Virus record (IMG/VR): IMGVR_UViG_3300031566_000169
Location: 1-37,959 of that record
Length of the DNA: 37,959 nucleotides
DNA from: a virus
Direction: 5' to 3' (one strand)
Of the stretch, positions 34,757-37,959 are shown one piece after another (position 1 is the stretch's first letter; every line of letters begins with the position of its first letter). The notes under the pieces were generated by a model. That model did no database searches. It was given only the letters and a program-made list of their open reading frames with translations, and was not told the origin of the DNA. Both the position numbers and the translations under genes were made by a program.

Positions 34757-34798
34757 AAATCAATGACTTATAAGACCCCCAACATAAGTCATTGATTT
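34757..34798 (+). terminator. Hairpin with 15-bp perfect stem (terminator of a PeSL-like cassette)
   Basis: Arms AAATCAATGACTTAT (34757-34771) and ATAAGTCATTGATTT (34784-34798) around a 12-base loop, with U-rich 3' sequence. The same stem recurs at 37007 with one compensatory change. A consensus promoter follows 18 bases later. Confidence 0.75.
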
Positions 34799-34816
34799 TA
34801 TTAATGTTAATTGGGC

Positions 34817-34845
34817 TTGACACTAACTTCAAACTCCAGTAAAAT
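34817..34845 (+). promoter_or_regulatory. Consensus sigma70 promoter of the MoxR module
   Basis: TTGACA (34817-34822), a 17-base spacer, and TAAAAT (34840-34845), followed by an AGGAG before the ATG at 34886. Directly downstream of the hairpin at 34757-34798. Confidence 0.85.
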
Positions 34846-34885
34846 ACTAGGGTATTAAACGTTAACCTACTAGGAGAATAAACGT

Positions 34886-35980
34886 ATGGCTCAAGCACAA
34901 GAATCCACCCGCACAGTAAATCCCAAAGAAGCTGAGGCGGCAATTATGACTTGTTTTAAGTCGAAGCGTCCGCTGTTTCTGTGGGGACCTCCGGGAATCG
35001 GTAAAAGCGAAGTGGTAGACACTATTACTACGCGCCTCGAAGGCTTTATGATTGACCTGCGTTTGGGTCAAATGGAGCCGACGGATTTGCGTGGAATTCC
35101 GTACTTTAACAAAGAGCTGGGGCTCATGGACTGGGCACCGCCCATCGACCTTCCTTCGGAAGAACTTGCTGCAAAATATCCGATCATTGTATTGTTCCTC
35201 GACGAGATGAACGCGGCAGCGCCGTCGGTGCAAGCGGCTGCCTACCAGCTTATTCTTAACCGTCGTATCGGAAAATACTTTCTCCCCAAAAACGTTGTTA
35301 TTGTTGCAGCGGGTAACAGGGAATCGGATCGAGGCGTTACTTATCGCATGCCTAGTCCGCTTGCCAACCGTTTTGTTCACCTCGAAATGAGGCACGATTT
35401 TGATTGCTGGCAGGAATGGGCAATTCATCATCGCATCAACAACGACGTTATTGGTTACCTCAGCCACAATAAACAAGATTTGTTCGACTTCAAAGCGACG
35501 TCGGCGAGCCGGGCGTTTGCTACTCCGCGTTCGTGGGTCTTTGTAAGTGACCTCATTGACGACGGTGTCGGCTACGATGTCCTGACCAATCTGGTTGCTG
35601 GTACTGTTGGCGAGGGCCTTGCTGTTAAGTTCATGGCGCACCGGAAATTGGTCGAAGACCTTCCGATGCCGATGGACATTCTTGAGGGCAAGGTTACGGA
35701 ACTCAAAGTCAAGGAGATCAGCGCAATGTATTCGCTTACGATTTCCATGTGCTACGAACTGAAGGATGCCAGGGAGAAAAAGGTCTCCGACGACAAGTGG
35801 CACAAAATGATCGATTGCTTCTTCGCGTTCATGATGAAGAATTTCCAAAAGGAAATCGTGGTTATGGGCGCGCGTACTGCGCTCACCACGTATGACCTTC
35901 CGATTAACCCGAAGAAGATGAAGTCCTTCGACGAGTTCCACAAACTGTACGGCAAATACATTATTGCCGCTAACCAGTAA
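34886..35980 (+). CDS. MoxR-type AAA+ ATPase
   Basis: 364 residues. Walker A GPPGIGKS (34-41), LRLGQMEPTDLRGIP (the MoxR-specific segment), Walker B IIVLFLDEMNAA (D106, E107), sensor 1 IVAAGNRES, and arginine-finger region MPSPLANRFVHLEM. MoxR/CobS-like ATPases act with VWA-domain partners to remodel or metallate target complexes, and a HExxH/VWA-type gene lies 1.1 kb downstream in the same module. The gene is much richer in G/C at third positions than the genes to its left, suggesting recent acquisition or strong codon selection. A consensus promoter and AGGAG precede it and a strong terminator follows. Confidence 0.92.
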   Translation: MAQAQESTRTVNPKEAEAAIMTCFKSKRPLFLWGPPGIGKSEVVDTITTRLEGFMIDLRLGQMEPTDLRGIPYFNKELGLMDWAPPIDLPSEELAAKYPIIVLFLDEMNAAAPSVQAAAYQLILNRRIGKYFLPKNVVIVAAGNRESDRGVTYRMPSPLANRFVHLEMRHDFDCWQEWAIHHRINNDVIGYLSHNKQDLFDFKATSASRAFATPRSWVFVSDLIDDGVGYDVLTNLVAGTVGEGLAVKFMAHRKLVEDLPMPMDILEGKVTELKVKEISAMYSLTISMCYELKDAREKKVSDDKWHKMIDCFFAFMMKNFQKEIVVMGARTALTTYDLPINPKKMKSFDEFHKLYGKYIIAANQ

Positions 35981-35988
35981 ACGGTTTA

Positions 35989-36040
35989 GGCTAGTTGGGA
36001 TGGCGTCCTAGTCGCCGGCAGTACCCAACTAGCCTTTCTT
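35989..36040 (+). terminator. Rho-independent terminator after the MoxR gene
   Basis: GGCTAGTTGGG (35989-35999) pairs perfectly with CCCAACTAGCC (36024-36034), followed by TTTCTT. The 24-base loop contains a further GGCG/CGCC pairing. Placed nine bases after the moxR stop, it should limit readthrough into the small genes. Confidence 0.88.
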
Positions 36041-36054
36041 ATTAAGGAGACAAA

Positions 36055-36300
36055 ATGAACCGCAAATCAAAATATATTGTTGTAAAACACGAAGGTTTTG
36101 AGATGCCGATTGTCTTTTCTGACCTAATGCAGCATACGCAGGCGGCGGGCCTGCGCGAGGTTATTGGTGCAGGTTTTTGCTATGTCGAAGCTGGCGAATA
36201 TGTTTGTTATGGTGAAAGCATTGGTCTACATGTTAAAAGCCGAGGCGAAACAGATGCATCGGTACTGAATGAAATGCTTGGAATGATCCGTGAAGAATAA
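36055..36300 (+). CDS. Unknown 81-aa protein
   Basis: A small protein with strand-like N-terminus (KYIVVKHEGFEMPIVFSD) and a Gly-rich middle (GAGFCYVEAGEYVCYGES). The family is not recognised. AAGGAG lies four bases before the ATG, directly after the moxR terminator, so it depends on readthrough or an unseen promoter. Small genes like this are frequent in phage accessory modules. Confidence 0.65.
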   Translation: MNRKSKYIVVKHEGFEMPIVFSDLMQHTQAAGLREVIGAGFCYVEAGEYVCYGESIGLHVKSRGETDASVLNEMLGMIREE

Positions 36301-36301
36301 T

Positions 36302-36574
36302 ATGAATAAAGACAAACCAATGACCGCTGATGAATTTCTAAGTTATTGGTTGGATCCAATTGACGATGAAGGTCCTCACATGTCTGCGTTGGATGCATTT
36401 GAGGAATCTCTTTTTGAGCATGAATCCCAATATTATAGTGAGTGCGCGATGTTTGGTGATGCCGGTCCAGGACAAGGATTGCACGTTTCTAATGGACAAC
36501 GCGAACTTGAAAATGTTCGTCGTCAAATTAACCGTATCAAAACCTTAAAAGGTGAACTGCATGGCAATGACTAA
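36302..36574 (+). CDS. Unknown 90-aa acidic protein
   Basis: I use ATG 36302, one base after the previous stop, in preference to a GTG at 36290 inside that gene. The protein is acidic in its first two thirds (FLSYWLDPIDDEGPHMSALD, FEESLFEHESQYYSE) with a basic C-terminal helix (LENVRRQINRIKTLKGEL). No family recognised. It overlaps the membrane-protein gene by 14 bases. Confidence 0.62.
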   Translation: MNKDKPMTADEFLSYWLDPIDDEGPHMSALDAFEESLFEHESQYYSECAMFGDAGPGQGLHVSNGQRELENVRRQINRIKTLKGELHGND

Positions 36575-37004
36575 AAACGAACGTCGATTTTATTGGGCAG
36601 TTCAAGACTCATTATTTCTTACCATGACCTATTTGGCTGTGGTTGATGGTATTGGTTGGGCTAACGTTGTTCTCAATGTGTACCTTTGGATAATGATCGT
36701 GTCAATGGGTCTTATTGCATTGGGTACCTGGGCGCATAATTTTCTAGTAGCACAAGGTCATCGGGACAAAAACGAACTAACAGTGCTTGATCAACTTCGA
36801 GCAAAAGGAGTATCAGTGCCCCCACTGCTTATGGCTTTTGTTGACGCTATTGTTTTCGGTGCTGCATTATCAGTCGGTTGGTATTGGACCGCTGCCGCCG
36901 CATTTAGCATGATTATTTTTGAAATTGTCGTATTTGATAAACGTGCTGTCGCTGCCGCTGTGGCGCGTAAAAATGAATTTGAGATGATGGCTGAAAAAAA
37001 CTAA
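36561..37004 (+). CDS. Predicted four-helix membrane protein
   Basis: 147 residues from ATG 36561, with AAAAGG eight bases upstream (a GTG at 36552 is too close to that site). Hydrophobic segments at roughly 15-35, 37-57 (LWIMIVSMGLIALGTWA), 87-107 (LLMAFVDAIVFGAALSVGWYW) and 108-125 suggest four membrane helices. A basic loop (HRDKNELTVLDQLRAKG) lies between the second and third. Too large and too many helices for a classical class II holin, and there are no lysis genes beside it. Role unknown. It closes the MoxR module ahead of the second hairpin cassette. Confidence 0.68.
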   Translation: MAMTKNERRFYWAVQDSLFLTMTYLAVVDGIGWANVVLNVYLWIMIVSMGLIALGTWAHNFLVAQGHRDKNELTVLDQLRAKGVSVPPLLMAFVDAIVFGAALSVGWYWTAAAAFSMIIFEIVVFDKRAVAAAVARKNEFEMMAEKN

Positions 37005-37006
37005 AC

Positions 37007-37051
37007 AAATCAATGACTTACAAAACCAGTACCGATGTAAGTCATTGATTT
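37007..37051 (+). terminator. Second copy of the 15-bp hairpin (PeSL-like cassette)
   Basis: Arms AAATCAATGACTTAC (37007-37021) and GTAAGTCATTGATTT (37037-37051) around a 15-base loop. It is identical to the stem at 34757 except that the closing T-A pair has become C-G, so pairing is preserved. A consensus promoter follows 16 bases later. Confidence 0.75.
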
Positions 37052-37067
37052 ACAACAGGATATTTGG

Positions 37068-37096
37068 TTGACACTATACCAGATCCACCATATAAT
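37068..37096 (+). promoter_or_regulatory. Perfect consensus sigma70 promoter
   Basis: TTGACA (37068-37073), a 17-base spacer, and TATAAT (37091-37096), both hexamers perfect. An AAGGA precedes the ATG at 37123. This is the strongest promoter in the window. Confidence 0.92.
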
Positions 37097-37122: not shown

Positions 37123-37959
37123 ATGAGCCAAGACACCACAGCAAACAAAAAGATCAAGCTCAACACCTTGTCCGATACGTTTGATGCAAAGTTGGACGAG
37201 AAAGTGCGCGAGCAAATTGTTACTGCGCGAATCAGTATGTTACTGAAAATGCCCTTCCTGGGCAATATTGCTACCCGACTTATTCTTGTACCTGCCGATA
37301 AATGGCTGCCTACTGCGGCGGTTGATGGTCGGCATTTGTTTTACAATTCCAAATTTTTCCAAATGCTTTCGTTGCCGCAAACCATTTTCGTAATCGGCCA
37401 CGAAATTCTCCACGTTATTTACGAGCACATGGATCGTCGCGCACACCGCGATCCTGGGTTGTGGAATATTGCGGCTGACTTTGCTATTAACGGTGATTTG
37501 GTTGAGCACCGAATCGGTGAAAAAGTAACACAATTTCCAATCTGTCTTGATCCGAAATATACCGGTCGAACGGCAGAAGACATTTATAATGAGCTGTATG
37601 AAAACGCCGACAAAATTAATATCCAGGAATTGTTAGATCAATTGTTGGATGAGCATTTAGATCCCGACGGCGAAGATCCGAGTAAGGGCAAGGGTGGAAA
37701 CGGTAATGATGATGGTGATGGTGCGGGTAGGCCAGTTCTTAGTCCTGAGGAGCGCCGTAAGGTGCGCGACGAGATTAAAGAAGCAATTATGCAGGCATAC
37801 CAGGCGGCAGGGGCAGGTAATCTTCCGGCGGGTGTAAAGCGATTGCTCGACGAGATGATGGAGCCGAAAATGAACTGGCGTGAATTGTTGCGCCAGCAAA
37901 TTGAAAGCACGTTCAAAAACGATTTTACCTGGATGCGGCCTTCACGTCGAGGCTGGCAC
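37123..37959 (+). CDS. HExxH metallopeptidase / VWA-type protein (3' partial)
   Basis: The frame is open to the window end (279 codons seen). TIFVIGHEILHVIYEHMDRR carries a zinc-protease HExxH (H93, E94, H97), followed by WNIAADFAINGDLVEH, as in the N-terminal putative metallopeptidase domain of DUF2201 proteins. An acidic Gly/Asp linker (GKGGNGNDDGDGAGRP) and LNWRELLRQQIE-type sequence follow. In that family the missing C-terminus is a VWA domain with a MIDAS site, and the partner is a MoxR ATPase, here at 34886. Composition is GC-richer than the left part of the window. AAGGA and a perfect promoter precede the ATG. Confidence 0.82.
   Translation, partial: MSQDTTANKKIKLNTLSDTFDAKLDEKVREQIVTARISMLLKMPFLGNIATRLILVPADKWLPTAAVDGRHLFYNSKFFQMLSLPQTIFVIGHEILHVIYEHMDRRAHRDPGLWNIAADFAINGDLVEHRIGEKVTQFPICLDPKYTGRTAEDIYNELYENADKINIQELLDQLLDEHLDPDGEDPSKGKGGNGNDDGDGAGRPVLSPEERRKVRDEIKEAIMQAYQAAGAGNLPAGVKRLLDEMMEPKMNWRELLRQQIESTFKNDFTWMRPSRRGWH

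Follow-up and report, generated by a model that had tools for sequence, protein, structure and literature searches.

The phage lambda promoter pL is activated by IHF, and in Escherichia coli the RIB/RIP and BIME elements are IHF-binding palindromic repeats located at operon 3' ends. In phage Mu, ATCAACGCGTTA, an IHF-consensus site, lies upstream of the promoter Pe, and Pe transcription reportedly falls when that site is deleted (PMC3820752). The PeSL elements of the T4-type phages RB49 and phi1 consist of a stem-loop followed by an early-type promoter, and are repeated within the genome (in part from PMC4503421). The IHF consensus is WATCAANNNNTTR (PMC5963220, PMC7581858); in Table 2 of PMC6907758 the H-NS and IHF binding motifs are apparently swapped in print.

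The window, by which we mean the whole viral DNA stretch of 37,959 nucleotides analysed here, contains two inverted repeats, each beginning 2–3 nt after a stop codon and ending 16–18 nt before a sigma70-type promoter (Table 1). The arms are AAATCAATGACTTAT and ATAAGTCATTGATTT in copy 1, and AAATCAATGACTTACA and TGTAAGTCATTGATTT in copy 2. The first-pass annotation had reported a 15-bp stem present twice, each time followed by a consensus sigma70 promoter, with the two stems differing at the loop-closing pair. Both statements are confirmed (the closing pair is T-A in one copy and C-G in the other), with the correction that the arms of copy 2 are really 16 bp long and include one inner pair more than those of copy 1. 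The two promoters score highest in the region. The DNA polymerase encoded in the window is nearest to the enzymes of Phosso and Atu_ph07, both jumbo phages, and another contig matches the window at 99.96% identity across 5.5 kb.

Table 1. Positions of the inverted repeats, putative IHF-type cores, promoters and genes in the window
Feature	Position	Strand	Remarks
Hairpin 1 (two IHF-type sites in inverted orientation)	34757..34798	+	15-bp arms, 12-nt loop
Promoter-proximal IHF-type core, copy 1	34785..34796	-	20 bp before -35
Sigma70-type promoter 1, TTGACA-17-TAAAAT	34817..34845	+	11/12 match; reads into MoxR gene
MoxR-type AAA ATPase (phrog_1297; AAA_5)	34886..35980	+	
Three small ORFs, insert between MoxR and DUF2201	36055..37004	+	Unmatched in 79 relatives
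Small ORF	36055..36300	+	
Small ORF	36302..36574	+	
Small ORF	36561..37004	+	
Hairpin 2 (two IHF-type sites in inverted orientation)	37007..37051	+	16-bp arms, 13-nt loop
Promoter-proximal IHF-type core, copy 2	37038..37049	-	18 bp before -35
Sigma70-type promoter 2, TTGACA-17-TATAAT	37068..37096	+	12/12 match
DUF2201_N putative metallopeptidase, MoxR's usual partner	37123..37959	+	Cut by window end

All four arms agree, as AAATCAATGACTTA, with the IHF consensus at every informative position, the consensus being that of E. coli. The two arms of each hairpin are a single 14-bp site, present once in either orientation; the promoter-proximal core of copy 1 reads ATCAATGACTTA on the minus strand and TAAGTCATTGAT on the plus strand. 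A literature search gave no relevant match to the arm sequence, and a search of Rfam matched no family, with a single chance miRNA hit. A count of variants took the 11-mer as its only starting point and made no use of IHF; in it, 21 of the 22 intergenic single-mismatch variants fell in the four N positions of the IHF consensus, compared with 2 variants in all for the control; the nominal binomial probability, about 1e-8 if the variants are independent, is a guide only, because related loci are pooled. In a 344-kb viral record (G003), ATCAANNNNTTA occurs 31 times in intergenic DNA, which makes up 8% of that genome, and 15 times in coding DNA, whereas the reversed control occurs 2 and 23 times, respectively.

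The motif TCAATGACTTA with an inverted copy 3–33 nt away was found in 64 IMG/VR stretches, versus 2 for a control with reversed arms. These 64 stretches group into 34 clusters that share no nucleotide similarity, their loops and flanks are unrelated, and they are mostly intergenic. Promoters of 10–12 matches lie downstream in 38 of 73 cases, where shuffled flanks predict 3.6. Thus, the proposed recurrence of the hairpin-plus-promoter unit in other phages holds. A search of the window's own record, apparently a fragment, yielded no further copy within two mismatches. A longer form of the inverted pair was present in only five bacterial contigs in 257 Gb, all with proteobacterial titles. Five bacterial genomes showed a modest excess (61 versus 19 for the control), with copies in both coding and intergenic DNA. 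A Beggiatoa MAG contains ATCAAYRACTTA 31 times, versus 9 for the control, some copies lying inside coding or repeated sequence. None of 20 GenBank phage records tested, among them the cultured proteobacterial phages PA5oct, Phosso, Atu_ph07, 121Q, RB49 and XacN1, was clearly enriched in the motif, which counts against IHF as the factor.

In one locus (L036:5550-5672), four arm copies, two direct and then two inverted, are nested about a single hairpin. L017, L026, L038, L054 and their relatives have stems of 17–20 bp that extend past the motif, with loops of 22–32 nt, and carry two copies about 2.9 kb apart. In L087 and L088, both of the viral record G025, promoters are preceded by GC-rich terminator-like hairpins that hold the motif in their loop (for example, CCCTGCTAAGTCATTGATCTTGCAGGG). 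At L130, L161 and L180, an apparent tRNA gene has an IHF-type site starting within a few bases of its 3' end, and a phased promoter comes next.

The relation of site to promoter was examined in a scan in which the N4 stretch of the site and the gap between site and -35 element (from 10 to 40) were left free, and which gave 121 distinct matches, compared with 111 for the control. The gaps peak at 19–20, 29–30 and 40 bp, and none of these peaks is found in the control. Over the whole collection, a gap of 19–20 bp occurs in at least 120 stretches and a gap of 24–25 bp in 3. Among the matches listed, the 19–20 class comprises 61 independent clusters, 48 of them intergenic; 52 of 59 promoters face the next gene, and a second site is present in inverted orientation in 7 of the 61 clusters and in direct orientation in 3. 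Both gaps in the window (Table 1) fall in the first peak (18–22). The placement of the site, in helical phase with a sigma70 promoter downstream of it, is as expected for an IHF-activated promoter, and the 10-bp phasing argues for a DNA-bound factor acting on one face of the helix. In L185, five near-identical promoters, TTGACATTTAATTGAGTCGTGATATAAT, lie within 8.8 kb, and their gap to an IHF-like core is 12.

In the same scan, 69 of the 121 matches, compared with 2 of the 111 control matches, have AC as the last two letters of N4. The site profile also has a GG conserved about 7 bp beyond the core, in a flank that on the ATCAA side is otherwise AT-rich, and the extended consensus is TAAGTNNTTGATTTnATaGG. 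By these profiles, the phage sites are more exacting than the IHF consensus of E. coli, since plain IHF requires neither NNAC nor GG, a point against the IHF reading. The sites of G003 are chiefly single or direct repeats, often 25–26 bp apart, and TAAGTCATTGATTT generally reads towards a promoter. The hairpin is thus not the feature common to these phages, because the arm elsewhere occurs singly or as a direct repeat at the same distance from the promoter. At L079, L083 and L084 of G003, three direct-repeat IHF-type sites lie ahead of single promoters, GTTGACC...TATAATTAGTACATAG, which apparently form one promoter family of this phage.

From sequence comparison, we consider that the promoters in the window are probably assisted by host IHF, acting at twin inverted sites. 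The attribution to the host is suggested by the gene content of the motif-bearing records: in 25 of 27, including those of 344 and 357 kb, no Bac_DNA_binding (IHF/HU) gene was recognised, and a phage-encoded IHF/HU was therefore dropped from consideration. Bending is proposed because of the helical phasing. Each facing pair of IHF-type sites lies directly behind the upstream stop codon and approximately two helical turns before the -35 element, and host IHF would occupy the site nearer to the promoter, whose AT-rich arm points that way. The resulting sharp bend could engage upstream DNA or the alpha C-terminal domain of RNA polymerase and thereby stimulate transcription of MoxR and DUF2201. 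The second inverted site might bind a second IHF, insulate the promoter from read-through, or give the upstream message an RNA hairpin at its 3' end. Activation by bending is suggested by the Mu Pe precedent, the phasing and the probable host origin of IHF taken together; the sites may instead serve in repression, in road-blocking of upstream transcription, or in a double role.

The first-pass annotation had read the elements as PeSL-like cassettes. On such a reading, the stem-loop would terminate transcription of the upstream genes and be joined to an early promoter, and the repeats would serve as recombination points for exchanging modules. A strong sigma70-like promoter does stand beside each stem-loop, and the hairpin lies between stop codon and promoter in both copies; its RNA folds are stable (-15.9 and -18.5 kcal/mol, z about -6, with shuffles never as good), the motif of G025 is found inside terminator-like hairpins, and the ORFs between the hairpin copies vary among relatives. 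However, the stem is AU-rich, a U-tract is absent, and a terminator scan called neither hairpin. Furthermore, the promoter-phased sites are mostly single and unable to form a stem (7 of 61 with an inverted partner, among the matches listed), a terminator would not be expected to be phased to a promoter, the hairpin is absent before MoxR in 79 relatives whose MoxR-DUF2201 interval varies, and ATCAANNACTTA is not enriched in RB49 or phi1 (in both, 3 per 164 kb versus 1 for the control). The PeSL label is thus quite unlikely to be correct and is not retained. The difference between the two copies at the loop-closing pair had been offered as proof of selection for pairing. This pair is complementary beyond chance, in 20 of 34 clusters versus 12.1 expected (p=0.0025), but template switching between the arms would give the same result. 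Either the hairpin does something of its own, for instance as an RNA 3' end, or such switching has homogenised the arms. Selection for pairing as the sole cause is weakened, the arms being motif copies and the sites elsewhere being mostly single or direct. IHF alone leaves this covariation without explanation.

The elements might also be operators for a phage-encoded or unknown host activator, other than IHF but with an IHF-like preference. Such an activator would account for NNAC and the downstream GG, which are narrower than the E. coli IHF consensus, and for the restriction of the motif to some phage groups, but the spread over at least 34 unrelated clusters favours a host factor, and the variation is almost confined to the N positions of the IHF consensus; we regard this alternative as unlikely. 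It is likewise rather unlikely that a non-IHF factor, whose motif TAAGTNNTTGATTTnATaGG would resemble that of IHF but be stricter, activates promoters in many unrelated phages while bound to one constant face of the helix, a situation which, if true, would represent an undescribed promoter class common to a large part of the uncultured virosphere. Finally, a selfish or recombination-prone inverted repeat without any regulatory role could be present in the window lineage and missing upstream of the same gene in the 79 relatives, as is observed, but its fixed helical distance to promoters, intergenic position, and unrelated flanks and loops make this highly improbable.

The MoxR of the window is 51% identical to the PA5oct ATPase. 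A DUF2201 partner lies near MoxR in 76 of the 79 relatives, 24–3265 bp away, and is also found in PA5oct and Phosso; in the window the DUF2201 gene sits outside the hairpin bracket. The MoxR gene of PA5oct is also GC-high (0.53) among AT-rich neighbours. The suggestion that the hairpins bracket a foreign MoxR module was accordingly rejected, the pair being conserved, the high GC recurring in AT-rich PA5oct, and the partner lying outside. The MoxR-DUF2201 interval varies among relatives, and the small ORFs are its sole variable part. Because most of the 79 relatives keep a sigma70 promoter before MoxR and none has the hairpin there, the IHF-type sites were, most simply, added to a pre-existing MoxR promoter in the window lineage; their loss everywhere else is less likely.

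If host IHF does act at these sites, many virulent-type phages, jumbo phages included, would have independently placed a host DNA-bending protein before their promoters, each time at one of two or three shared helical positions. A mode of control familiar in lambda and Mu would then reach a broad range of uncultured phages, strong promoters in viral contigs could be recognised by the sequence signature of the site, and IHF-carrying hosts (proteobacteria) would be predicted. The recurring arrangement suggests a common way of drawing the host transcription machinery to phage genes.

Compared with the described systems, the window shares with lambda pL and Mu Pe the placing of an IHF consensus site before a sigma70 early promoter. 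Sites of the window type differ in being located approximately 20 or 30 bp before the -35 element with the ATCAA side facing the promoter (the orientation in Mu is opposite), in often directly following the preceding gene, in being found in many uncultured phages, and in sometimes being inverted twins. The repeated stem-loop followed by an early-type promoter is shared with PeSL, but the arm in the window is an IHF-type site without a terminator U-tract, and most members elsewhere are stemless. As in RIB/RIP and BIME of E. coli, IHF-type sites are found near gene ends within palindromic elements; in contrast, the elements in the window are not REP sequences and are tied to a downstream promoter at a fixed distance.
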